Origin: an uncultured Myxococcales bacterium
GTDB taxonomy: Bacteria > Myxococcota_A > UBA9042 > DTJE01
Assembly: GCA_903847405.1 (NCBI GenBank)
Contig: CAINDP010000023.1
Location: forward strand, 1 to 40,240
Reading direction: 5' to 3'
DNA: 40,240 nucleotides
Both the position numbers and the translations under genes were made by a program. The notes below the pieces were generated by a model that saw only the letters and a list, made by a program, of their open reading frames with translations, did no database searches and was not told the origin of the DNA. Of this stretch, positions 7,532 to 28,315 are shown piece by piece (positions within the stretch are counted from its first letter, which is position 1; each line of letters begins with the position of its first letter).

Positions 7532-8938
7532 TCAGTCGGCTCCCTTTTCCAGCCTCGCCACCACGCGGTCCAGCGCGCTTCCCGGCGGCGCGGCCACCAG
7601 CCACGGCGTCCCCTCGGGCGGCGCCGCGTCCAGCAGGTCCTCCAGGCACTCGGCCCGGCGCACGATCACGCTGCCGCCGCCCTGGGCGACTTCCATCAGC
7701 ACCTGGCCTGCCAGGACGGGATCGTCCACGACCGTGATCTTCAGGCTCCCCCGGCGGCCCCGGGGGTCCACCGGCAGGTCCAGCCGGAAGGACGCGCCGC
7801 CTCCCTGCGTTTCCTGGACCGCGATGCGGCCGCCATGCTCGCCGGCCACCTCGCGGCATACGACCAGCCCCAGCCCCGAGTGCTTCCGCCCGTCCTCGCC
7901 GGGGTTCGACACGCCCGGCAGGAAGATTCGCTGGCGATCCTCGACGGGCACGCCCGGGCCTGTGTCCTCGACCACCAGGCGCACGCCGGGCCGTCCGTCG
8001 GGGAAGGTCCCCGCGGGCGCGGCCTCGGACAGGACCCGCACGCGTCCCAGGCGGGGCGTGTGGCGCAGCGCATTGTCCAGCAGGGCCAGCAGCACCTGCA
8101 GCAGGCGCAGCCGGTCGCCCCAGATCACCGGGCACCCCGGGTCCTCCTGGGTTTCCAGCGACACGTTGCGTTCCTGGAAGGCGCGTTCCAGCAGGTCGGC
8201 GGCCTCGGTCGCCAGGGCGCCCGGGCGCAGCCGCGTCCGCTGCCGGGTCCGGGCGTCGGCCAGCGCCCCGGGTGCGGGCGGTCGATCCCGGTCCGACTCC
8301 TCGCGGGTCTTCGCCAGCACGCCGGCCAGGACCTCCGAGGCCACGCGCATGCGTTCCAGGCTGCGGCGCTGCGCGTCGTCCAGGGGTCCGTCGATCCCGT
8401 CCAGCAGGTTCGAGGTGTACCCCGCCAGGATCGTGCCCGACGTCCCGACCTCGTGGACCAGTTCCCGCAGGCGCTGGTGGAACCGCCGGCTGCGGGCCTG
8501 TTCGGTTCGCAAGCGGCCCTGCAGGTCCCGGGCCTCGGCGTCGGCCTGCCGGGCCCGCCCCGCGCGTCCCGCCACCGCGGTCAGAACGGCGGCCAGGTCC
8601 GCCTCGCCGATCATCGTGGGCAGCAGCGCATCGGCGCCGGTCGTCAGGCGGGCCACGGTCGCCACGCACCCGGGCCCCGGATCCCCCAGGATGACGATGG
8701 GCACGTCCCGGGCGACCTCCCGGACCAGGGCCATCAGGGCGGTCAGATCCCCGGTCGCGGTTTCGTCGATCACCGCGACGTTCGCGGTCCCTTCCAGCAG
8801 GGCGGCCAGGAACGCGGCCTGATCGCCCTGCCGGCGCCAGGACAGGCGCTGCCGGTCCGGGGCGATCCCCGGGACCGTCCGCGGTTTCCCGGGGCCATCC
8901 AGCAACACCACGGTCAGGGAAGGGGCTTCCGGATTCAT
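7532..8938 (-). CDS. histidine kinase with degenerate receiver-like N-terminus
   Basis: The 468-residue soluble kinase has a receiver-like fold in residues 8-120. It keeps an Asp at the end of strand 3 (Asp58 in VAVIDE) but lacks the acidic pair and the conserved Lys, so it is probably a pseudo-receiver. A short coiled linker leads to a HisKA-like helix with phospho-acceptor His162 (VHEVGTSGTIL). The ATPase domain follows with the N box (LLDNALRHTP, Asn289), G1 box (VEDTGPGVP) and GLGL (355-358). About 65 extra residues after the ATPase resemble another degenerate alpha/beta domain. No membrane segment is present, so the signal is cytoplasmic. The receiver gene follows after nine bases, making it the obvious partner. 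ATG 8938 is taken as the start; the ribosome site is weak. Confidence 0.87.
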   Translation of the reverse strand: MNPEAPSLTVVLLDGPGKPRTVPGIAPDRQRLSWRRQGDQAAFLAALLEGTANVAVIDETATGDLTALMALVREVARDVPIVILGDPGPGCVATVARLTTGADALLPTMIGEADLAAVLTAVAGRAGRARQADAEARDLQGRLRTEQARSRRFHQRLRELVHEVGTSGTILAGYTSNLLDGIDGPLDDAQRRSLERMRVASEVLAGVLAKTREESDRDRPPAPGALADARTRQRTRLRPGALATEAADLLERAFQERNVSLETQEDPGCPVIWGDRLRLLQVLLALLDNALRHTPRLGRVRVLSEAAPAGTFPDGRPGVRLVVEDTGPGVPVEDRQRIFLPGVSNPGEDGRKHSGLGLVVCREVAGEHGGRIAVQETQGGGASFRLDLPVDPRGRRGSLKITVVDDPVLAGQVLMEVAQGGGSVIVRRAECLEDLLDAAPPEGTPWLVAAPPGSALDRVVARLEKGAD

Positions 8939-8965
8939 CGTGCGTCCGTTCGTCCGCGCGCACGG

Positions 8966-8994
8966 ATGATAGGTCGCCCCCAGCCGGGTCGCCA
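8966..8994 (-). promoter_or_regulatory. possible internal promoter for the kinase-receiver-HEAT-lipoprotein genes
   Basis: On the minus strand TATCAT (8971-8966) is a strong -10 match with a poor -35 (TGGCGA, 8994-8989) at 17 bases. It lies in the 110-base gap between the glycosyltransferase and kinase genes and would start RNA about 20 bases before the kinase ATG. It could let the regulatory genes be expressed apart from the glycosyltransferase. Confidence 0.4.
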
Positions 8995-9048
8995 GTTTTC
9001 GGCGTCCGCGGCAGGGTGGAAGCGGCCCTCGGGGAACCGGGGGATCGC

Positions 9049-10611
9049 TCAACCCGCCTTCGGACCCGTCCCGGCTCCCTGGAAGCCCTTGCGGCTGAAC
9101 TTGTCCCAGGACTTGCGACCCTTCAGCCAGTCCCGGAGTCCCTTCAATTGCCACCACAGCAGGTACTGGCGGTAGCCCAGGTTGGACAGGAGGCCCGCGA
9201 AGACCAGCACCAGGATGGTCTTGGGGCCCCGGTAGTCGAACAGGGCCCGATCGGTCAGCCGGTTCGGCAGGCGCACCCGGGCGATGGCCGACAGCACGCT
9301 GCCAGCGGACAGCAGCAGGTTGAAGCCGATCGCGAACAGCAGGAAGGAGGCCATCGCCGACCAGTCCAGCAGCCCCGCGGCGGCCGACAACGGCACCACC
9401 AGGTAGCCCAGCGTTTCGATGACGGGCGCCAGGGCCTCGAACAGCAACTGGTAGGGCAGCGAGAACATGCCGATGCGGCCGTACCGCCGGTTGAACATCA
9501 TCTTCCGGTGGAACCACAGGACCTCCAGCAGGCCCCGGTACCAGCGGCTGCGCTGCTTGCCCAGGCTGACGTATTCCTCGGGGGCCTCGGTCCAGGACGT
9601 GGGTTGGGGCAGGAAGACCACGCGCCCCACGATGTGGTTGTCCATCAGGAAGCGGTGCAGGCGGACCACCACCTCCATGTCCTCGCAGACGGTGTCGACG
9701 CCGGCGCCCACGTACTCCCGGCTGACGCGGCTGCGGATGTGCTTCGTCAGGAAGCCGCCCGCGGCCACCAGGGTTTCGCGCTGGATCAGGGCGAACACCC
9801 CCGACAGCACCAGCAGCGCGTTGAACTGTCCCAGTGCCGTGCGGCTCTGGGTGAAGGATCGCATGTACTCGACCACCTGGAACCGGGCGATCCAGGAGTG
9901 GGGCAGGTTCACCTCCAGCACCTTCCCGTCCAGCACCTTGCAGTCGTTGGACAGCGCGATCTGGCCGCCGACGGCCATCACGTGGTTGGGGTCGTCCAGG
10001 ATGGGCTGGATCGCGGCGCGCAGGGCCTCGTCCACCATCAGCGAGTCCGCGTCCATGGAGGCGACGTAGGTTCCCTGGGAGGCGTTGATTCCGGCGTTGA
10101 TGGCGTCCGCCTTGCCGCCGTTGTCCTTGTCCACCAGCACCATGCGCAGGACCGTCGGCGGGAGGTCCATCGTGGCGCGGTACAGCCCCCGGACCGTCGC
10201 GGTGCCCAGCACGGGGCTGGTGTCGATGTCCGACCGGACGAAGCCGAAGGCCTCCTTCAGCACCTCGACCGTCCGGTCCTTCGACCCGTCGTTGACGATG
10301 ACGATCTCGTAGTGCGGGTAGTTCAGGCGCAGCAACGATCGGACGCTCTGGACGATCGTCACCTCCTCGTTGTACGCCGGCACCAGCAGCGAGATGTGGG
10401 GCGCGAAGGCCTCGACGCGGTCGTTCTTGCGCACCGCCGCCTGGGCCATCTGGAGGGTCTGCCGCACGTGCAGCGCGCTGATGATCAGCAGGACCAGGTT
10501 CGTGCCGGCGTAGGCGAGGAAGTACACCACCACCAGGGTGTCCAGGACCAGCAGGATGTCCTTCACGAGGCCCATGGCGGGATTTTCGACGATATCGGCC
10601 GTCGCGGCCAT
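9049..10611 (-). CDS. processive family-2 glycosyltransferase, membrane-embedded
   Basis: The 520-residue enzyme resembles cellulose, hyaluronan and poly-GlcNAc synthases, which polymerise a sugar nucleotide on the cytoplasmic face and thread the chain through the membrane. A membrane segment lies at about 20-45. The GT-A catalytic domain follows: LLVPAYNEE, nucleotide-binding Asp108 in VNDGS, the DxD pair in SMDAD (187/189), the catalytic ED (CED, 310-311) and the acceptor-binding QRSRW at 353-357. The D,D,D,QxxRW set is that of processive enzymes. Several C-terminal membrane segments (about 385-500) and a basic tail end the protein. Product sugar cannot be told from sequence. It is divergent from the YaiO-like gene and upstream of the kinase genes. 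In E. coli yaiO also lies near a family-2 transferase (yaiP), which supports a functional link. An alternative ATG is at 10575. Confidence 0.92.
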   Translation of the reverse strand: MAATADIVENPAMGLVKDILLVLDTLVVVYFLAYAGTNLVLLIISALHVRQTLQMAQAAVRKNDRVEAFAPHISLLVPAYNEEVTIVQSVRSLLRLNYPHYEIVIVNDGSKDRTVEVLKEAFGFVRSDIDTSPVLGTATVRGLYRATMDLPPTVLRMVLVDKDNGGKADAINAGINASQGTYVASMDADSLMVDEALRAAIQPILDDPNHVMAVGGQIALSNDCKVLDGKVLEVNLPHSWIARFQVVEYMRSFTQSRTALGQFNALLVLSGVFALIQRETLVAAGGFLTKHIRSRVSREYVGAGVDTVCEDMEVVVRLHRFLMDNHIVGRVVFLPQPTSWTEAPEEYVSLGKQRSRWYRGLLEVLWFHRKMMFNRRYGRIGMFSLPYQLLFEALAPVIETLGYLVVPLSAAAGLLDWSAMASFLLFAIGFNLLLSAGSVLSAIARVRLPNRLTDRALFDYRGPKTILVLVFAGLLSNLGYRQYLLWWQLKGLRDWLKGRKSWDKFSRKGFQGAGTGPKAG

Positions 10612-10694
10612 TTTTCGGCCGATGGCCGGGAGGTGGGCGTCAGCCGGGGATTCGCGGTATTCGTTCGGGGATCGGGAGTGGGGGAGGAGCAGTC
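10612..10694. promoter_or_regulatory. divergent intergenic region, glycosyltransferase / YaiO-like gene
   Basis: These 83 bases must carry the start signals for both divergent genes. GGAGGAG at 10683-10689 serves the GTG at 10695. No convincing -35/-10 pair is visible on either strand; a GTATTC stretch near 10658 is the only AT-rich piece. Confidence 0.45.
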
Positions 10695-12029
10695 GTGGTT
10701 CCGGGGCGGACGGCAGCGGTGGCGCTGGTGGCGGGGATCCTGGTCGCCGGGATCGCCCTGGCCCCGGGGCCGGCCGCTGCCGGCGAGTGCCCCGACGCCT
10801 GGCTGCACCTGCGCACGGGCGACCCGGTGGGGGCCGAGCAGAAGGCCCGGGCGTGCCTGGATGCGGACCCGCTGTCCACCGACGCGGCCCTGGTGCTGTC
10901 CCGGGCGCTGGCTCGGCAGAACCGCTATGTCGAGGCCCTGACCTGGGCCGACCTGGTGCAGCGCCGTCACCCGGAGGACCCGGAACTGGTGATCTGGGTC
11001 GGACGCCTGCTGGCCTGGAAGGGCGACCTGGACGCCGCCTGGGCGAAGGTGAAGGATCTGCCCCCGGATCGGGACGACCCCGACGAACTGCGCTTCCTGG
11101 CCGACCTGGCCTTCTGGCGGAAGGACCACGCCCAGGCCGCCGCCCGCTACGACCGCGTGGTCCTGCGGGACGGAACCGACCGCAGGGCCCGCCTGAACCG
11201 CGGCCTGTCCCGTCGCGATGCCGGGGACGCGGCGGGGGCCTTGAAGGACTTCGCGCTCCTGTGCAAGGGCGGCGACCGGGAGTGCTGCCTGCTGGCCGAT
11301 CAGGTGCGCGTGGCCCGCTCGCGGGTCCGGGGCTGGGTGCGTTTCGACCACTGGGTCCTCCTGGACCGTCCCGACGCCTGGAGCCTGGGGACCGGGATCG
11401 ACGGCCGCCTGCCGAAATCCTGGAAGGCCGGGGTGTCCTTCGAGATCCGCCCCCGGCTCTACACCGAACGCACCTTCGGGGACCTTTTCACCGAATTCTG
11501 GGCCTCCGGGGATCCGGCCCGCTGGGCCACCGTGCGCGTGGCGGGCGGCTTTTCGGTGGAACGGCGCTACTCGCCGGTCTGGTCCCTGCTGGTCGAGCCC
11601 GTCTTCCGTCCCTGGCAGGGCGTCGAACTGGGGTTGCTGGCGTGGCGCCTGCAGTTCGATCCGTTGCCGGCGACCGTGATCGGTCCCTCGGCGCTGATGG
11701 AATGGGGGCGCTGGACCCTGCTGCTGCGCTATTACCTGGGTGTCCGGGACGACGGGGACGTGTCCCATTCCGGCTTTGCCAAGGTGGGCCTGCGGATCGG
11801 CTGGCCCTGGCAGGTGCACCTGGCGGTCGGGGCCGGCAACCGGGCGGACTACCTGGAGTTGCGGGGCAACCCGACGGCCCAGTTCCACTGGACCCTGGGC
11901 GCCGGCCTGGCCTGGCAACTGGACTGGCGCTGGCGGCTGGTGCTGGACCTCATGTACCGCGACGAGCACGAGGGCGCCGCGCGGTTCCGGCAACTGCGCA
12001 GCAGCCTGGGGGCCGAGGTTCGATTCTAG
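10695..12029 (+). CDS. YaiO-type TPR plus outer-membrane beta-barrel protein
   Basis: The 444-residue product has a cleavable signal (ending near GPAAAGE) and, from about 30 to 200, tetratricopeptide-like helical pairs (for example AQKARACLDADPLSTDAAL-type and AAARYDRVVLRDGTDRRAR-type units). From about 205 to the last residue, alternating aromatic/polar strands form a beta barrel. The chain ends in Phe, the usual C-terminal signal for outer-membrane insertion. This TPR-then-barrel order is that of YaiO-family proteins and recalls PgaA/BcsC exporters. GTG 10695 is supported by GGAGGAG five bases upstream. Probable role: guiding or exporting the polysaccharide made by the divergent glycosyltransferase. 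The substrate is unknown. It converges with the next gene, leaving only six bases. Confidence 0.82.
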   Translation: MVPGRTAAVALVAGILVAGIALAPGPAAAGECPDAWLHLRTGDPVGAEQKARACLDADPLSTDAALVLSRALARQNRYVEALTWADLVQRRHPEDPELVIWVGRLLAWKGDLDAAWAKVKDLPPDRDDPDELRFLADLAFWRKDHAQAAARYDRVVLRDGTDRRARLNRGLSRRDAGDAAGALKDFALLCKGGDRECCLLADQVRVARSRVRGWVRFDHWVLLDRPDAWSLGTGIDGRLPKSWKAGVSFEIRPRLYTERTFGDLFTEFWASGDPARWATVRVAGGFSVERRYSPVWSLLVEPVFRPWQGVELGLLAWRLQFDPLPATVIGPSALMEWGRWTLLLRYYLGVRDDGDVSHSGFAKVGLRIGWPWQVHLAVGAGNRADYLELRGNPTAQFHWTLGAGLAWQLDWRWRLVLDLMYRDEHEGAARFRQLRSSLGAEVRF

Positions 12030-18931: not shown

Positions 18932-20995
18932 TCAGGAAGACCTGGAATCCAGGACCAGCCGCACCTTCGTTGCCAGGATGCGCAGCGAGAAGGGTTTCTG
19001 CAGGAACGAGATGCCGTCGTCCAGGACGCCGTGGTGGCCGATCACGTTGCTGGTGTAACCCGACATGAACAGGACCTTCAGGCCGGCGAACTCGCGGTGC
19101 AGCACCTCAAACAGTTCCATGCCGTTCATCCCGGGCATGACCACGTCCGTCAACAACAGGTCGACGTGCCCCGCGTGGGCACGTGCCAGGTCGATGGAGT
19201 TCCGGGGCTCTGCCGTCGCCAGCACGCGGTAGCCCAGGTTTTCCAGGCTGGCGCGGGTCAACTCGCGGACCGCCTCGTTGTCCTCGACCACCAGGATCGT
19301 TTCGGTGCCCCGGGGAAAGGCTTCCAGTTCGGGCGTTTCCAGGGCGGCCGCGGCGTCCCCGCCCGCCATCCGGGGCAGGTAGACGTGGAACACGCTCCCG
19401 TGGCCCTTTTCGGAGTAGGCCGCCACCGACCCACCGTGCTGCTTGACGATGCCGTAGACCGTCGACAGTCCCAGCCCGGTGCCCTTCCCGGGTTCCTTCG
19501 TCGTGAAGAAGGGTTCGAACAGGTGCGCCATGGTGTCGGCATCCATCCCGACGCCGGTGTCGCTGACCGAAAGCCGCACGTAGGGACCCGGCAGGACCTC
19601 GGGATGCTGGCGGGTATAGTGGGCGTCCAGATCGACGTTCGCCACCTGGATTCCCAGGTCGCCGCCCACCGGCATCGCGTCCTGGGCATTGACCGCCAGG
19701 TTCAGCAGCACCTGCTCGATCTGGCCGGCGTCGGCCCGGACGACCCCGACGTCCGGTGCGAGGTCCAGCCGGATGGCGATGTCCTCCCGCAGCGTCCGCC
19801 GCAGGATCGCCTCGAACCGCTGGATGACGGTGCCCAGGTCCAGGATCCGCAGTTCGATGATCTGCTTGCGCCCGAAGGCCAGCAGGCGCTGGGTCAGGTC
19901 GCGCCCGCGCTCGGCGGCCTGTCGGATGTACTGCAGCGCGCCGTGCTGGGGCGACGATTCGGGAATGTCGGCGGCCAGCAGTTCGGTGAACCCGAGGATC
20001 GGCGTCAGCAGGTTGTTGAAGTCGTGCGCCACGCCCCCGGCCAGCAGCCCGATGGACTCCATCTTGCGGACCTGAAGGATGGTTTCCTCCAGCCGCCGCC
20101 GCTCGCTGATGTCCACCAGGAAGCCTTCGAACTGCTGCGGACGGCCGGCCTCGTCCCGGGCCAGGCGCGCGCTGATGGCGACCCACGTCAGCCGACCGTC
20201 CCGGCACCGCAGGGGCACCTCGCGGCCCTGGACCTCCCCGTGCCGCAGCAGGGTCGCCACGATGTCGTCGCGATCCTCCGGTCGCGCGTACAGTTTCACC
20301 ACGGAATCCGAAACGTCCTCGCGCAATTGCTCGATCGAGTCGTATCCCAGGATGTGGACCATGGCCGGGTTGCCGTCGAGGATCCGCCCCTCCAACGAAC
20401 TCAGGAACAGGCCCTCGACGGCGTTTTCAAAGATTCTCCGGTACTTCTGCTCGCTGCGGCGCAGGTCCGCGTTGGCATCCTCGACCCGTCTGCGGGCCAG
20501 CCCCATCTCGCCGATCAACTGCACCTGGCGGGAAAGGAACGCCATGATGTGCCGGACATTTTCCTGGGTGAAGATCGGGACCTTGCGCAGCGCCTCCCGG
20601 TAGGCGGCCGGATCGAAGCCGAACTCCCGCGCCTGGCCTTCGAAAAAGGCCGGGTCCGGGGGTTCGAAGAAGAACTGCCCCATGAAGAAGTTGGCGACGT
20701 GGGTGCCGCCGATGGCGATCGGCACGGCGACGTCCACCAGGCCGTTGCCGCACCGGTACACGTTGAACGCCTCGCCCTTTCGCAGGTTGCCTGCCAGGAC
20801 GGTGTCGCTGTGCAGGCAGCGCGCCGTGGTCACGGGGTGGACCCGGTGGAAGCGGGTGCAGATGTCCTGCCACCCGGTGGCGATCAGGATGGTGCCGTCC
20901 AGGTCCAGGATGGCGGTCGGCACACCCGTCAGGGCGGTAAAACTTTCAAACGATTTGCGGAGTTCCGCCACGTCGACGAGTTCGGCGAACGTCAT
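18932..20995 (-). CDS. PocR-PAS hybrid sensor histidine kinase with receiver
   Basis: The 687-residue cytoplasmic protein has, in order: a PocR-type ligand-binding domain (about 5-165, with Cys46, Cys60 and Cys82 in the family's usual places); a PAS domain (about 183-297); a HisKA helix with His324 in GVAHDFNN; an ATPase domain (Asn436 in LLNLAVNAQDA, DTGVGM at 479, GTGLGLS near 505); and a C-terminal receiver (acidic residues in VVEDNE, phospho-Asp617, Lys667). PocR domains are thought to sense small organic molecules. The attached receiver makes it a hybrid kinase, or a self-contained module feeding an unlinked partner. GAGG precedes the ATG by seven bases, and a strong promoter lies upstream. 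The acyltransferase gene follows. Confidence 0.92.
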   Translation of the reverse strand: MTFAELVDVAELRKSFESFTALTGVPTAILDLDGTILIATGWQDICTRFHRVHPVTTARCLHSDTVLAGNLRKGEAFNVYRCGNGLVDVAVPIAIGGTHVANFFMGQFFFEPPDPAFFEGQAREFGFDPAAYREALRKVPIFTQENVRHIMAFLSRQVQLIGEMGLARRRVEDANADLRRSEQKYRRIFENAVEGLFLSSLEGRILDGNPAMVHILGYDSIEQLREDVSDSVVKLYARPEDRDDIVATLLRHGEVQGREVPLRCRDGRLTWVAISARLARDEAGRPQQFEGFLVDISERRRLEETILQVRKMESIGLLAGGVAHDFNNLLTPILGFTELLAADIPESSPQHGALQYIRQAAERGRDLTQRLLAFGRKQIIELRILDLGTVIQRFEAILRRTLREDIAIRLDLAPDVGVVRADAGQIEQVLLNLAVNAQDAMPVGGDLGIQVANVDLDAHYTRQHPEVLPGPYVRLSVSDTGVGMDADTMAHLFEPFFTTKEPGKGTGLGLSTVYGIVKQHGGSVAAYSEKGHGSVFHVYLPRMAGGDAAAALETPELEAFPRGTETILVVEDNEAVRELTRASLENLGYRVLATAEPRNSIDLARAHAGHVDLLLTDVVMPGMNGMELFEVLHREFAGLKVLFMSGYTSNVIGHHGVLDDGISFLQKPFSLRILATKVRLVLDSRSS

Positions 20996-21106: not shown

Positions 21107-23236
21107 TCAGTCGGGGAGCACGCAGCGGGCGCGTTCGTCGCCCAGGCGGTCGCGGACGGCGCACCCCAGGCCCAGTTCCGCGCAGTCGACCCGGCGGCCC
21201 ACCTGGTTTTCGCACCAGGTCAGCACGCTGCCCTCGCAGGAGGCCTTCGCGGTGCAGGGGTCCTCGTCCGCGACGCCCGTGACGCAGGCGCCGTCCAGGC
21301 ATTTCAGCCCCTGGCGGGCGCAGTCGGTGACCCGGTCGCCGCCCTGGGTCCGATCGAAGCACTGGAAGGCGACGTCGTTCTTGCAGGTCCGGGTCGTCCC
21401 GACGGGGCAGGGCGACGGGTACACGATGCAGGTCTCCTGGCACATCATGCCGTGGGCCTCGCAGTCGTCCACCATGCCGGTCGCCTTGTCGAGCGCCCGG
21501 GCCTTTTCGTCGCATCCCTTTCCAGCGCCCCCGGCGGCGAAGCCCTCCGTGTCGGCGGCGCAGGAGGCCCAGTACTCGCCCATGATCTTTTCCAGCCGGC
21601 AGGGGAAGCCGTTCAGATCCCGGCAGTTCACCAGGGTCGGCACGGTGCCGAACGTGAGGTTGGGCCCCAGGCACTTCACGGCCCAGTCGCCGTCGCAGGC
21701 CTCCACCGGGCAGGTCGAGGGCCCGGCGAACAGGGCTCCGTCGGCGGCCTTCAGGCCGGCGCAGTCCCGCGGATCGGCGGCCAGGAAGCGCACCAGTTCG
21801 GGATCGGCCGCGCCCGGCGGGAATCGTCGCGTACCGAAACGGGCCAGGCAGTCGGTGGCCGCGGCCGACTCCGGGAAGCAGGCCTCCTCGGCCAGGCACT
21901 GTTTCCCCAGCGGCGATGCGGGGATGGGGTTGAGGATCGTGTCGGACGGCAGGCCCGCCGCCGGGTCGATCAGGGCGGCGAACCCGATCGCCAGCGTCTG
22001 CCGGCCGTCGTGCCGCAGGTCGTAGACCAGCAACTGCCGGGTGGGCGAAATTTCGGACAGGAACACCAGTTCGGACGGACAGTTGGCCGGATCGGCGCAG
22101 GGGCTGGGAATCGGGAGGGCCAGGCCCTTCCCGTTGGGCGTGATCCGCACCAGGGAGCGCACCGTCTGGTCGCCGACCTTGCGGTCCAGCGGGATGAACC
22201 GGCCGTAGCGCTCGTGCAGCCCGTCGCCGGCCGACGTGTTCACCTGGCCCGTTCCCAGGTCCGCCTTCGGCCAGTCGATCCCGTGGACGACGGCGTGGTC
22301 CCCCTTCGGTGCGATCAGCGCCATGCCCCGCTCCGTGGGCAGAAGGAACCCGCCCGGATAGTCGGCGTCGGGCCAGCAGGCACCCAGCACCGGCGCGTCC
22401 TGGCTGTTCGACTGCACCGTGAACCAGCAGTAACGGGAGTCGGGCGTGTGGCAGATCCCGAACACCCCCCAGTCCACGATCGCGATCTGCCCGGGCGTGC
22501 AGCCGACGGACGGGTTGTAGGCGACGTTGCCCCCGGTGGTCTGGTAGTAGGCGATGTCCGTCATGGACCAGTACAGGGTGCCGTACCCGTCGGGGACGCC
22601 GTCCCGCACCACCGTCTCGCTCCCGGCGCAGATCAGCATGCCCTGGGAGCCCGCCCGGCAGTAGTCGACGTTCATTTCCACACCCACGTCGGTCTGGCCG
22701 GTGTCCAGGTCCAGGTGCGCGGGCAGCATGAATTCGTACCGGCGCACCTGTTCGCTGCCCGTCATCACGGGCACTTCGCGGAAGCTGGGCAGCAGGGCGT
22801 AGGCCTTTCCCTCGGCCAGCATGACGCCGAACCCTCCCTTGGACGACAGGACCCGGTTTTCGGGCGGCAGCAGCGGCCGCTGGACGAAGGTCCGGCCCCC
22901 GTCGCGGCTGATCAGCAGGACCAGGTCCATCCCCGAGGATCCGGTCACGAGGTGGTAGTCGGCGCCCGCCTCCATCAGCGGCGGCACCCCGCCGGTCAGG
23001 TCCGTGCTGGTGTACTGCTTGGCCGCGATGACGATGGTGTCGCCCGCCACCGCCACGTCCGATACGATCAGCCGCGTGGTCATGCTGGCCGTGGGCCGTC
23101 CCGTGGCCGCGATCGGCGTGGAATCCGCCCGCAACGTGAACGATTCCGAGGAGTCCGCGCCGGGGCAGCCCAGCACGGCCAGGGCCAGCGCGAATCCGAC
23201 CACGACGGCCGCGTTTCGGGAGGGGATCCGGTTCAT
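21107..23236 (-). CDS. large Cys-rich surface lipoprotein
   Basis: The 709-residue product has a lipoprotein signal (VVVGFALALAVLGC, Cys24 with Pro at +2). The first 400 residues look beta-rich, with an Asp-box-like ISRDGGRTF near residue 105 as in sialidase or BNR propellers. The C-terminal 200 residues are rich in cysteine. The end carries two or three related modules of the form C-x-G/N-x(4-6)-C-x(5-12)-D-C-A-x-x-G-L-x-C (for example VTDCARQGLKC and VDCAELGLGC). Such modules are common in secreted proteins of myxobacterial relatives and are probably disulphide-bonded. ATG 23236 is supported by GGAG eight bases upstream and the immediate signal peptide. Function unknown; probably exposed on the surface. 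Confidence 0.78.
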   Translation of the reverse strand: MNRIPSRNAAVVVGFALALAVLGCPGADSSESFTLRADSTPIAATGRPTASMTTRLIVSDVAVAGDTIVIAAKQYTSTDLTGGVPPLMEAGADYHLVTGSSGMDLVLLISRDGGRTFVQRPLLPPENRVLSSKGGFGVMLAEGKAYALLPSFREVPVMTGSEQVRRYEFMLPAHLDLDTGQTDVGVEMNVDYCRAGSQGMLICAGSETVVRDGVPDGYGTLYWSMTDIAYYQTTGGNVAYNPSVGCTPGQIAIVDWGVFGICHTPDSRYCWFTVQSNSQDAPVLGACWPDADYPGGFLLPTERGMALIAPKGDHAVVHGIDWPKADLGTGQVNTSAGDGLHERYGRFIPLDRKVGDQTVRSLVRITPNGKGLALPIPSPCADPANCPSELVFLSEISPTRQLLVYDLRHDGRQTLAIGFAALIDPAAGLPSDTILNPIPASPLGKQCLAEEACFPESAAATDCLARFGTRRFPPGAADPELVRFLAADPRDCAGLKAADGALFAGPSTCPVEACDGDWAVKCLGPNLTFGTVPTLVNCRDLNGFPCRLEKIMGEYWASCAADTEGFAAGGAGKGCDEKARALDKATGMVDDCEAHGMMCQETCIVYPSPCPVGTTRTCKNDVAFQCFDRTQGGDRVTDCARQGLKCLDGACVTGVADEDPCTAKASCEGSVLTWCENQVGRRVDCAELGLGCAVRDRLGDERARCVLPD

Positions 23237-23268
23237 CGGGGTGCTCCGCGGGGGCCAAGGACGGCGGA

Positions 23269-23276
23269 AGTATAGT
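23269..23276. promoter_or_regulatory. overlapping divergent -10 boxes
   Basis: TATAGT (23271-23276) on the plus strand and TATACT (23274-23269) on the minus strand overlap in the gap between the Cys-rich lipoprotein gene and the 23386 gene. Neither has a good -35 at 16-18 bases. Overlap would make the two transcripts compete. Confidence 0.4.
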
Positions 23277-23385
23277 CCGGAGGGGCGGTTCGAACGAACA
23301 CGACCGGACGCGTTCATTGCAAATCGACACCGGCCTTGCCATGCTGGCGTCGCAACGGTCCAAACGACTGACGAGGAGTTTCAAA

Positions 23386-23967: not shown

Positions 23968-26892
23968 CTACTCCCCGTCCAGGATCCCCTGCAGGTAGGC
24001 GCGCGGGTCCTGGGCCAGCGGCGACACGACGCATGACGGGCCCTGGCCCGACAGCGTCCCCGGGGGACCCTCGATCGTCCAGGCCCCCGCCTGGGTCGCC
24101 GTCACGTGCGTGAATCCCCAGGCCGTCGGGTCCGTCGGCACCAGGTCCAGCGCCCACGGCCCGCCCTCGGCCAGCCCGGGGTAGGTCGCCGTCGCGTCGG
24201 GGTGCAGCAGCACGAACTGGTTGACCGGCGGGAACGTGAAGCCCGAATCGCCCGCCTCCATCGGGAAGCTGAACGCGACCGGGTACGGCGCCGTGGAAAA
24301 GTCGAAGGGGAACGTCCGCGCCGGATCGGTGTACAGCTCGGTCGCGACGATCCCGAACCAGTCGTCCCGGCAGGTCCGGCGTTCCACCCGCGACACCATG
24401 CCCAGGACGTCGCGCGGCACCCGCAGCGCCACCACGCCGGCCGGCCCCCGCAGCGCCGTTTCCAGCGTGCGCGCCTGCTTGATCACCAGGCGCTCCGGGT
24501 CCTGCACGCCGTCGGCCCGGGTGGGCCATCCGGCCGCCATCCGCTTGAACTCCACGTCCAGCGTGATCGTGGACATCGCGAACCCGGGGCCCTTCACGGC
24601 CTCGCGGGCCGCGTTGCGCACGTCCATCCACCGCTGTGCCAGCGGCGCCAGGCGCTCCAGCAGCCCCGTCAGTTCCCCGTCCGTCAGCAGCCACGTCCCC
24701 GCAGCCACCTCGCTGGACGACTGCGTGCGCTGCACCGCGACGGCGCCCGTCCCGGTCCGGCGCACCACGTCGATTTCCGGCGACGCCGTGGAACCGGCGG
24801 GCGGGTTGGTGACGCTCAGGAAGCCCTTCTGGGCGTTCACGGTCATCGTGTGCAGGTCGCCGTCGGCCCGGCGCACGATTTCCAGCATCAGCACGCCGTT
24901 CGCCAGTTCCTTGTCGTCGGTGAACACCGGGTGGACCGCGATGCCCATGCGGCCGTCCAGGTGGGCGATGCCGGCGTTCTCGCGTTCGTCGAAGGCGCTG
25001 GCCAGCCAGTAGGTCGCCCACACCTGCTTGACGGTTTCCTCGATCGTCTTGGCGCGATCCTTCGGGTCCGCCTGTTCCTCGGGGTACAGGTAGGCGGTGT
25101 GCGATTCGTACAGGCCCGCGCCGCCGAAGCCCTCCACGTCCTCGGCCGTGGACGACGACCGGAACCGCAGGCCCTGGGCGTGCGACAGGAACGCGAACCG
25201 CTGGCGCAGGGCGTCCGTGATGCGCGCCAGGGTCCCGGCATCCATCGGCGCGTCCCGGACCATCCGGCGCACGCCGCCGGCCGCCACGGCGTCGCCCAGG
25301 GCCGTGCCCACCGGGCGGACCACGTCGAAGGCCGCCAGCACGCTGGCAGCGGCCGCGCACCCGGCGAACCGCGTCAGGAACGCGTCGCGTCCCTCCAGCA
25401 CCAGGGCGCGGACGCGGGCGTCCTGCCGGAACTTTTCGTCCGCCAGGATCGTGTCCAGCGGCGGCGCCAGCGACGCCAGGTGCTGCGCGTAGCCCTTCAC
25501 GGTCAGCGCGAACGGCCGGTCGGGCAGCTCGATGCCCAGGGCGTCTCGCAGCCCCAGGAAGCCCGCCGACTTGCCGCCCAGCAGCGGCACCAGCCCCGGC
25601 ATCTGTTCCAGCCCCACGGACGTCAGGTCGAACGTCTCGGGCGCGTCGGCCAGGTCCGCCGGGACCAGCGGATCCACGTGGATCCGGCCCAGCAGGTCCG
25701 TGTACTGCTCCCATTCGCGGTTGCAGGGATTCGAGGGGGTCGACGTCACGCGGTCGCAGTTCGTCGCTTCCCGCAGTTCCACGCCGTCCTCGGTCACGCG
25801 GACGATGATCGGGGTCCGGTAGTAGGCCCACGTGGCGATGTCCTCGCGCGTGGCGAGGCCCGCGACATAGGCGTTCGGGGTGCCGCGCGACTTCGCCAGG
25901 ATCCCGATGTGCGCCAGCGGGGTCTGGGGCACGGCCGTCAGGATGGCGGCCACGGGCGGCAGGTCGTCGGGGATTTCCTCCAGGACCAGCACGTCGGTCG
26001 GCCGAGGCAGGGCGCAATTGACGCCCCCCTTCGGAACCACCAGCACGCGCCCGGCGGCGATCCCGGGGTTGTAGCCCCGGACGTCCCCGGCGACGACCAG
26101 GTCCTTCGTGGCAACGACGCGGTCGCCATAGGGGCTGCCCGTCGCCTTCAGTTCCGCCGCCAGGTCTTCCTGGCCTGCGCCCTTCACCAGCCACGCCAGT
26201 CGGGGTCCGACCTCGGGCGGCAGGACCGACGCCAGGATCTCGAAGTATCGGATCAGGGTCGGGATGGTGGGCACGTCCAGGAACTCCAGTTCCAGCAGCC
26301 ACAGTTCGCCGGACGCCGGGCGCTTCAGGTTCGGGTTGAAGTGCTGGATGGTCCCGGTCGCGAAGAAGCGGTCCGACCCGAAGCAGAGGTCGTAGAAGTG
26401 CCCGGAGTACAGCCGGTGGCCTTCGTTGACCCAGCCGAGGTCCAGCGGCAGGTCCACCCGGTTCTTTGCCCAGACCACGATGTCCGCGATCGTGGCGAAC
26501 GACAGGCCCGCTTCCGGCGGGTAGTCGTAGCCCGCGATCGACTGTCCGTTCAGCAGCCTGAACCAGGACCACTCGTCGTGCATCGCGTAGAAGCCCGGTT
26601 CCTCGAAGTGGACGTCGGGCGCCGTTTCCCCGAAGCCGCGGATGACGAACTTCACCGCCGCGGGGTCCTGGGCGGCGCCCGCGTAGGCCAGGAAGTCGGC
26701 CACGGTCGCGAACCGCGGCACGGTGTGGTCGTCGAAGGCGGTCGATCCGTCGGGCGCGTCCGTGCGATCGTCCGCGGCATCGGCGGTGATGTCACCGGGC
26801 AGGTCGTACCCGGGCGCCGCGCTGTCGGGACAGGCGGTCGCCGCCAGGAGGATCGCCGCCAGGGCCGCCCGGGTGAATCCACGCATCGTCAA
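23968..26892 (-). CDS. PEP/pyruvate-dikinase-like lipoprotein with permuted domains
   Basis: The 974-residue product starts with a lipoprotein signal (AALAAILLAATAC, Cys21, Pro at +2). A large domain of unknown family fills about 60-260. Residues about 280-375 resemble the swivelling phosphohistidine domain of PEP-utilising enzymes, with candidate His328 in TPLAHIGILAKSRGTP. From about 435 to 815 comes a PPDK-N/ATP-grasp domain: GGKSAGFLGL (Lys441), LRFRSSSTAEDVEGFGGAGL (576-595), an Asp-x-Glu near 779-781 and VIKQAR (803-808), the usual end of that domain. In PPDK and PEP synthase the order is the reverse; plant glucan water dikinases have this order. TTG 26892 is used because GAGG is seven bases upstream; ATG 26886 is an alternative. 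Export would place an ATP-using fold outside the cytoplasm, so a non-catalytic or binding role is possible. Confidence 0.8.
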   Translation of the reverse strand: MTMRGFTRAALAAILLAATACPDSAAPGYDLPGDITADAADDRTDAPDGSTAFDDHTVPRFATVADFLAYAGAAQDPAAVKFVIRGFGETAPDVHFEEPGFYAMHDEWSWFRLLNGQSIAGYDYPPEAGLSFATIADIVVWAKNRVDLPLDLGWVNEGHRLYSGHFYDLCFGSDRFFATGTIQHFNPNLKRPASGELWLLELEFLDVPTIPTLIRYFEILASVLPPEVGPRLAWLVKGAGQEDLAAELKATGSPYGDRVVATKDLVVAGDVRGYNPGIAAGRVLVVPKGGVNCALPRPTDVLVLEEIPDDLPPVAAILTAVPQTPLAHIGILAKSRGTPNAYVAGLATREDIATWAYYRTPIIVRVTEDGVELREATNCDRVTSTPSNPCNREWEQYTDLLGRIHVDPLVPADLADAPETFDLTSVGLEQMPGLVPLLGGKSAGFLGLRDALGIELPDRPFALTVKGYAQHLASLAPPLDTILADEKFRQDARVRALVLEGRDAFLTRFAGCAAAASVLAAFDVVRPVGTALGDAVAAGGVRRMVRDAPMDAGTLARITDALRQRFAFLSHAQGLRFRSSSTAEDVEGFGGAGLYESHTAYLYPEEQADPKDRAKTIEETVKQVWATYWLASAFDERENAGIAHLDGRMGIAVHPVFTDDKELANGVLMLEIVRRADGDLHTMTVNAQKGFLSVTNPPAGSTASPEIDVVRRTGTGAVAVQRTQSSSEVAAGTWLLTDGELTGLLERLAPLAQRWMDVRNAAREAVKGPGFAMSTITLDVEFKRMAAGWPTRADGVQDPERLVIKQARTLETALRGPAGVVALRVPRDVLGMVSRVERRTCRDDWFGIVATELYTDPARTFPFDFSTAPYPVAFSFPMEAGDSGFTFPPVNQFVLLHPDATATYPGLAEGGPWALDLVPTDPTAWGFTHVTATQAGAWTIEGPPGTLSGQGPSCVVSPLAQDPRAYLQGILDGE

Positions 26893-27031
26893 GGTCGCAC
26901 CTCGCGCCCACCGGGGGCCTTCACACCTTCATGAACCAGGCCATTCTAGCGGGTTGTCGTTGCAGATTCCTCCGCTCCTTGACCTTCGGTCCTTCCCACC
27001 CCACCGTGTCCCCGGACCTCAGGGAGTTGCC

Positions 27032-28315
27032 ATGCCCCCCCTTCCCCACGTCGTGATCCTGGGTGGCGGCTTCGGGGGCCTGACTGCGGCCAAGGCCCTG
27101 CGCCGCGCGCCGGTCCGGGTGACGCTGATCGACCGGCGGAACCACCACCTGTTCCAGCCCCTGCTGTACCAGGCGGCGACGTCGGCCCTGGCCATACCGG
27201 ACATCGCCGCCCCGATCCGGCACATCCTCCGGGCCCAGTTGAACACCACCGTCCTGATGGCCGAGGCGACCGCGGTGGACGTCGCGGGCCGCCGCGTCCT
27301 GCTGGCCGACGGCGAGGTCCCCTACGACCGCCTGATCATCGCCACGGGGGTGACCCACAACTACTTCGGCCATGACGAATGGGCGGTCCACGCCCCCGGG
27401 ATGAAGACCGTCGAGGACGCCCTGGAGGTGCGCAGGCGGACCCTGCTGGCCTTCGAGGCCGCCGAGCGGGAGGCCGATCCGGAACGCCGTCGCCCGTGGC
27501 TGACCTTCGTCATCATCGGGGGCGGGCCCACGGGCGTCGAGCTGGCCGGGGCCCTGGCCGAAATCGCCACCCGGACGCTGGCCCGGGACTTCCGCAATTT
27601 CGACCCCCGGACCGCCCGCGTCGTGTTGTTCGAAGGGGGGCCGCGGATCCTGCCGACGTTCCCCGAGTCGCTTTCCGACGAGGCCCGCCGTCGCCTGGAG
27701 CGCCTGGGCGTCGAGGTCCGGACCGGCTGCACCGTGACCTGCGTGGATGGAACGGGCGTCGATGCGGACGGGCAGCGCCTGGAAGCCCGCACCGTGTTGT
27801 GGGCCGCGGGCGTGGCCGCGTCGTCCCTGGGTCGCACGCTGGGGGTGCCCCTGGACCGCGCCGGCCGTGTCCAGGTTCAGCCGACCCTGGCCCTCCCGGG
27901 TCACCCGGAGGTCTTCGTCGTGGGCGACCTGGCGGCCGTGCAGTCCGACGGCGAGGCGGTCCCCGGCGTCGCCCCCGCGGCCATCCAGGGCGGGCGCCAC
28001 GTGGCGCGAAACATCCTCCGGGACCTTCGGGGCGAACCCCTCCTGCCGTTCCGCTACCGCGACAAGGGGGCGCTGGCCGAGATCGGGACCCACGCGGCGG
28101 TCGCATCCTTCGCCGGCGGCCGCCTGCGCTTTTCCGGGATGTTCGCCTGGGTCCTCTGGCTGCTGGTCCACCTCCTGTTCCTGATCGGCTTCCGCAACCG
28201 CCTGGTGGTCCTGTTCCAGTGGGCCTGGGCCTACCTGACCTTCCAGCGCACCGCCCGCGTGATCCTCGCCTACGATCCGGGACGGCGCGACGTGCCGACA
28301 TCCCGGCCCTCTTGA
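27032..28315 (+). CDS. ndh: type II NADH:quinone oxidoreductase
   Basis: The 427-residue flavoprotein passes electrons from NADH to quinone without pumping protons, at the inner face of the membrane. The FAD-binding GxGxxG is at residues 11-16 (ILGGGFGGL) and the NADH-binding GGGPTGVELAG at 163-173. The second FAD contact is VVGDLA (296-301), and the quinone-site region is APAAIQGGRHVARNI (Gln319). The C-terminal 60 residues include a hydrophobic, aromatic membrane-anchoring stretch (about 370-405) typical of NDH-2. ATG 27032 follows GGAG by five bases. It is divergent from the dikinase-like gene. The gene symbol rests on family recognition, not on a specific orthologue. Confidence 0.92.
   Translation: MPPLPHVVILGGGFGGLTAAKALRRAPVRVTLIDRRNHHLFQPLLYQAATSALAIPDIAAPIRHILRAQLNTTVLMAEATAVDVAGRRVLLADGEVPYDRLIIATGVTHNYFGHDEWAVHAPGMKTVEDALEVRRRTLLAFEAAEREADPERRRPWLTFVIIGGGPTGVELAGALAEIATRTLARDFRNFDPRTARVVLFEGGPRILPTFPESLSDEARRRLERLGVEVRTGCTVTCVDGTGVDADGQRLEARTVLWAAGVAASSLGRTLGVPLDRAGRVQVQPTLALPGHPEVFVVGDLAAVQSDGEAVPGVAPAAIQGGRHVARNILRDLRGEPLLPFRYRDKGALAEIGTHAAVASFAGGRLRFSGMFAWVLWLLVHLLFLIGFRNRLVVLFQWAWAYLTFQRTARVILAYDPGRRDVPTSRPS

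Follow-up and report, generated by a model that had tools for sequence, protein, structure and literature searches.

Dikinases of the PEP synthase (PEPS) type are textbook cytosolic enzymes, and in the plant alpha-glucan, water dikinase (GWD1) and phosphoglucan, water dikinase (PWD/GWD3) a phosphohistidine (His) domain is placed before the nucleotide domain. The catalytic part of the plant enzymes is C-terminal, and they are plastid proteins with CBM45 or CBM20 modules (PMC6243121). Rifampin phosphotransferase (RPH), a dikinase with a domain for a small-molecule acceptor (PMC4844700), is cytosolic and has the order ATP-grasp domain, acceptor domain, His domain, with a GG loop before the histidine. 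The phenol-type dikinase systems HpeHI, CreHI and PpsAB, likewise cytosolic, consist of two proteins; one unit holds the acceptor domain together with the swivelling His domain and the other holds the ATP-grasp domain. A His loop of the type T/SXXGGXXXH has been stated for PEPS, pyruvate phosphate dikinase (PPDK), PtsI, RPH and HpeH (PMC12167813). In RPH and the two-component dikinases, the swivel chemistry serves diverse acceptors (PMC4844700, PMC12167813). No paper on exported dikinases was found in the literature searched.

The gene considered here lies in a window (the whole stretch of DNA that was analysed) of 40,240 nucleotides from an uncultured Myxococcales bacterium. A preliminary description, made from the sequence, had taken its product for an exported lipoprotein with the domain order of a glucan dikinase. 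The gene and its export signal are placed as follows:

23968..26892, minus strand: whole gene of the exported dikinase-like lipoprotein, 974 amino acids (open reading frame, codon-position GC, homologues)
26830..26892, minus strand: lipoprotein signal, residues 1-21, with the loose lipobox ATAC21

The GC content at the three codon positions (0.71/0.50/0.94) is of the coding type and full-length relatives exist at 35-49% identity; hence, this is a real gene. Its start codon is TTG, with an ATG two codons later. The long open reading frame on the opposite strand (24106-26934, plus strand) is its mirror in high-GC DNA. An NDH-2-like NADH dehydrogenase is encoded at 26723-28312 (plus strand); as called, its start falls within the 5' end of the dikinase gene, so that translation probably begins at a more downstream position. 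The window also encodes a probable lipoprotein of 736 amino acids (21110-23317, minus strand; lipobox VLGC), which has a tail rich in Cys and is matched by no Pfam family, and a hybrid sensor kinase with the Pfam domains PocR-PAS-HisKA-HATPase-receiver (18935-20995, minus strand).

The translation begins LTMRGFTRAALAAILLAATAC, a lipoprotein-type signal with Cys21 in the loose lipobox A-T-A-C. A cytoplasmic enzyme with a misread start, in which the lipobox had arisen by chance, would be in keeping with the alternative starts that exist and with a homologue from Streptomyces that has no signal, but it is made extremely unlikely by what is seen in the family. With a home-made pattern, a lipobox or signal-like segment was recognized in 42 of the 49 members with a usable N-terminus, and these signals differ in sequence and keep a constant place before the fold; most of the members without one come from loci truncated at the 5' end or have doubtful starts. 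An explicit lipobox was present in 30 of the 49, as against 5 of the 31 genes of the window, the dikinase-like gene being counted among the 5. Judging by its signal, the protein is thus an exported lipoprotein, as had been claimed, with lipidation predicted.

Behind the signal, the protein is made up of an N-domain, a phosphohistidine domain, a PPDK_N ATP-grasp domain and a C-domain, in this order. The AlphaFold2 model of the whole protein, built with the family alignment, reached a pLDDT of 87.6 and a pTM of 0.81. On comparing this model with the PDB by Foldseek, RPH and PPDK were at the top (E 1e-14 to 1e-4), RPH being the best match. The isolated ATP-binding domain of RPH (5hv6) gave a TMt of 0.61 to the model, and the whole-chain TM-scores to known dikinases were at most 0.24 by query length, a low value that would be expected for a rearranged multi-domain chain and is not proof. 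Lower-ranking matches to MHC-like proteins and a steroid lyase had tiny TM-scores at an rmsd near 20 and were dismissed. A PDB search by the single sequence of the protein gave a chance match only. The C-terminal half contains the following features:

24457..25605, minus strand: PPDK_N ATP-grasp domain, about residues 430-812 (PF01326; Foldseek to 5hv6)
25570..25572, minus strand: codon of K441, equivalent of Lys22 in RPH/PPDK (role from PMC4844700)
25159..25161, minus strand: codon of R578 in RFRSSSTAED, probable equivalent of Arg117 of RPH
24550..24552, minus strand: codon of E781 in LDxEF, probable Mg ligand
24469..24477, minus strand: Q806-A807-R808, closing motif of the ATP site
23971..24456, minus strand: C-terminal beta-rich domain, residues 813-974, with the Cys pair C841/C954, present in the full-length clade (alignment, model, Cys counts)

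PPDK_N (PF01326) is the sole Pfam match of the protein (residues 436-688, E 3.8e-9, 36.7 bits against a cut-off of 27) and was present in 34 of the 35 family members scanned. This ATP-grasp family and the predicted His chemistry are shared with PEPS and PPDK, which differ in that their domain order is reversed, they possess a PEP/pyruvate barrel and they are not exported. By Pfam, no PEP-binding barrel was found in the window protein, and the NCBIfam models of PEPS match its ATP-grasp stretch only, far below the cut-off. The C-domain (about residues 812-974), which was absent from the preliminary description, has Cys841 and Cys954 mostly conserved among family members.

The active site was followed through 52 aligned family proteins, whose identity to the window protein goes down to 22-50%. 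It was found that H328, K441, R578, E584 and D585 are invariant in all 52, and D779, E781, Q806 and R808 wherever they can be aligned (51/51); R576 is kept in 51 of 52, as is S597, which is replaced by T in the remaining protein. The ATP-site residues of RPH are Lys22, Arg117, Thr136 and Glu297 (PMC4844700). The first three of these fall on K441, R578 and S597, by profile alignment for the middle part and by motif correspondence for the rest, and the counterpart of Glu297 is most likely E781; the residue set of the PPDK/PEPS superfamily is therefore present. Lys441, Arg578 within RSSSTAED, Asp779/Glu781 and the closing KQAR (K805-Q806-A807-R808) are located where they had been reported, and the invariance of these residues and of His328 answers the question of their conservation that the preliminary description had raised. 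Neither of the outcomes that it named as contrary was seen, as the His, Lys and Arg positions are kept and the fold at residues 280-375 is related to the phosphohistidine domain.

In the light of the alignment, this conservation is far beyond chance and is not that of a decayed fold. The active site stays invariant even where identity to the window protein falls to 22-29%, and this speaks for catalysis and against a relic. A repurposed fold, i.e. a non-catalytic lipoprotein that binds a nucleotide or a sugar, had been put forward as an alternative; it would suit an exported place poor in ATP and the absence of partner genes, but pure binding needs no phosphohistidine, and the invariant active site makes this explanation very unlikely.

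The His domain was analysed with the help of a related protein (L078) from another genome of the class:

25753..26109, minus strand: phosphohistidine (swivel) domain, residues 262-380, with a GWD-type loop without GG (profile alignment, Pfam match in a member)
25909..25911, minus strand: codon of H328, the predicted phospho-carrying histidine
L078:1496-3535, plus strand: family member with a His domain within 2 bits of the GWD1_pHisD cut-off (Pfam)

The His domain of the window protein itself has no Pfam match to GWD1_pHisD or PEP-utilizers. A search with the family profile matched PEP synthases, and a second weak stretch aligned the region of H328 with that of the catalytic His of PEP synthase. 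The His loop reads TAVPQTPLAH, as against TxxGGxxxH in PEPS, PPDK and RPH. Of the two hallmarks of RPH, the TxxGGxxxH loop and the RIF-binding domain, neither was found. L078, which is exported and has the same N-domain, matches GWD1_pHisD (PF22973) end to end (positions 2-113 of 115, E 1.2e-5), with 25.3 bits, below the cut-off of 27, compared to 18.2 bits for PEP-utilizers (PF00391). In the host genome, the GWD1_pHisD scan gave only two matches, both weak and both His domains of paralogues, and across the class 13 of 31 weak matches belonged to the dikinase-like family. The cut-off of 27 bits was passed by no family member, the best reaching 25-26 bits.

The loop without GG and the match of this member support a His domain of the GWD type, with plant GWD as a closer counterpart than PEPS or PPDK; formal GWD membership is not reached, and the label 'glucan dikinase' is not established. 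The phosphohistidine-type domain that had been described around His328 was confirmed by these alignments and matches, and so was its position, since H328 precedes K441 in all aligned members, the order of GWD and PWD. Gene order in two-component dikinases can mimic this arrangement and runs either way, the His-domain gene preceding the ATP-grasp gene in Natribaculum and following it in Rhodococcus; hence, the domain order taken by itself says little in favour of a glucan enzyme. The plant enzymes share with the window protein this order and a C-terminal catalytic region, but they are plastid proteins with CBM45 or CBM20, whereas the window protein is an exported lipoprotein with another N-domain and sub-cut-off scores. 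This N-domain has the following features:

26086..26739, minus strand: N-domain, residues 52-269, probable acceptor-binding domain
26650..26652, minus strand: codon of K81, invariant in 49/49
26578..26580, minus strand: codon of H105 in the HDEW motif, invariant in 49/49; HDEW is near-invariant in the full-length clade

Modelled alone by AlphaFold2, the N-domain gave a pLDDT of 95.9 and a pTM of 0.92. It matched no Pfam family and nothing in the PDB, either by sequence or by fold (best E 0.57), and as judged against PDB structures alone its fold would provisionally be new. It differs from the acceptor domains of RPH, to which it is unrelated, and of the two-component systems. A survey of 20 genomes found it confined to proteins of the dikinase-like family and a few short frames or fragments, and, one fragment excepted, always joined to the dikinase module. 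Such a dedicated domain with invariant K81 and H105 suggests a specific acceptor, and the N-domain is the probable acceptor site of the protein.

Beyond the Myxococcota, where sampling is sparse, full-length matches to other members of the family were found on plasmids only in two plasmids of Streptomyces:

L098:4598-9425 and L101:4604-9284: ATP-grasp ligase (PF13535/PF18130), signal-less dikinase relative and MFS transporter, the same trio in both plasmids

The Streptomyces relative is full-length and 24% identical to L078 from end to end, including the K and H of the N-domain. Its lack of a signal shows that the dikinase module is not tied to export, and its place between the ligase and the transporter suggests that the acceptor in this branch is a small molecule. 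The trio is conserved between the two strains and resembles a small biosynthetic operon that has yet to be explored. In a tree of the ATP-grasp domain, the references for PEPS, PPDK, RPH and HpeI are separated from the family and Streptomyces lies in between, at supports of about 0.87-0.996.

The proposal that the domain at residues 60-260 stands in for the starch-binding domains of the plant enzymes did not hold, as the N-domain is without Pfam or PDB match, is restricted to the family in the 20 genomes and occurs in this cytosolic protein from Streptomyces, whose gene neighbours encode a ligase and an exporter. The domain order, the higher score of L078 for GWD1_pHisD and the weak matches throughout the class are what a true bacterial glucan dikinase would explain, an enzyme that phosphorylates an alpha-glucan or another polysaccharide outside the cytoplasm as GWD and PWD do with starch. 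It is, however, decidedly unlikely, in view of the sub-cut-off scores, the unmatched N-domain, the gene context in Streptomyces and a Pfam scan, possibly without a CBM45 model, in which no starch-binding module (CBM45 or CBM20) was found in the N-domain or elsewhere.

The protein is not unique but one of a large exported paralogous family that is expanded in the host genome. The host assembly (5.65 Mb, of Myxococcota type) is fragmented into 273 contigs, and seven or more genes with this architecture are present, on contigs 23, 123, 106, 65, 214 and 231, with one split over the ends of contigs 74 and 216; contig 28 carries a fragment of the N-domain, and ordinary PPDK-type enzymes are also encoded in the genome. 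Relatives were found in 35 of 52 genomes of the class and in 97 of 284 genomes of the phylum Myxococcota. The long form, which has both the C-domain and the HDEW motif, occurs in about 30 of these 97, and the forms in the remaining genomes are mostly of 700-850 amino acids and without the C-domain. Among named contigs, relatives came from one Myxococcota MAG and one Deltaproteobacteria MAG. No family members were found in viral contigs and no match to the window protein in plasmids. In databases, such proteins carry the generic name 'PEP/pyruvate-binding domain-containing protein'.

Several loci showed further features. In one genome, two family genes stand in tandem, one of them full-length and the other a shorter paralogue (L055:5887-8778 and 8736-11048, minus strand). 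A lamin-tail (LTD) domain was seen at the N-terminus of the members in L043 (1152-4607, by Pfam) and L087 (by eye), and a protein with 11 Dicty_CTDC repeats is encoded upstream of a family member (L059:35-3346, plus strand), with related frames in L064 and L067.

Among 19 loci, no gene neighbourhood was conserved beyond small groups of close relatives. A permease of the Transp_cyt_pur type lies just downstream of the family gene in two related loci from two genomes. It could point to an ATP-consuming scavenger, in which water or phosphate would be the acceptor, or the reaction would run in reverse, for the salvage of nucleotides or phosphate at the surface, e.g. from lysed prey. The lipoprotein location and the extracellular and periplasmic ATP known in other bacteria would suit such a role; nevertheless it is unlikely, as the permease is linked in two genomes only, a dikinase is an elaborate route to ATP hydrolysis and the dedicated N-domain with its invariant K81 and H105 suggests a specific acceptor.

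The preferred reading, to which a probability of roughly 0.6 is given, is that of a phosphotransferase of the dikinase type that acts outside the cytoplasm, in the periplasm or at the surface, where it would be held by its lipid anchor, with its acceptor bound by the N-domain. The gene, its export signal, the domain order, the predicted fold and the invariant active site are the observations behind this reading; catalysis, its direction, the N-domain as acceptor site and extracytoplasmic ATP as donor are suggested by analogy with the described dikinases. Against it weigh the modest score of the protein itself for PPDK_N, its lack of a match to either His-domain family, the low whole-chain TM-scores, the lack of a conserved gene neighbourhood that would indicate an acceptor and the fragmentation of the host assembly. 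ATP would bind to the ATP-grasp domain via K441, R578, E781, Q806 and R808 and its phosphate would pass to H328 on the swivelling domain, which would swing, by analogy with RPH and HpeHI, towards the N-domain; there, the bound acceptor may receive the phosphate with the help of K81 and H105. The overall reaction would be ATP + acceptor + H2O -> AMP + Pi + phospho-acceptor, with periplasmic or surface ATP as the putative donor. According to a review (PMC7432876), outer-membrane vesicles contain ATP and E. coli has a periplasmic pool of it, and by such reports from other bacteria ATP outside the cytoplasm is conceivable in principle; that a lysing predator would meet the ATP of its prey is speculation. 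The leading guess for the acceptor is a glycan of the envelope or the extracellular space or a scavenged small molecule.

CotH kinases are often exported or associated with spore coats. Three copies of this Fam20C-like type (PF08757) are encoded in the host genome (G000, contigs 74, 137 and 163); they differ in fold and chemistry, and the likeness to the dikinase-like protein is a functional analogy only.

For the Myxococcota, a broader proposal can be made tentatively, at somewhat less than an even chance: multi-copy exported dikinases with a GWD-type swivel and an acceptor-domain fold absent from the PDB may draw on extracytoplasmic ATP and transfer phosphate to an acceptor of the envelope, the extracellular space or prey, in which case they would be a first branch of the phosphohistidine dikinases to be exported. 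If this is true, the existence of such a family, widespread, exported and with its active site intact, would imply that ATP-driven chemistry takes place outside the cells of Myxococcota, and the source of the ATP would become the question. The family would also offer a bacterial relative for the phosphohistidine module of GWD, which is structurally unsolved.
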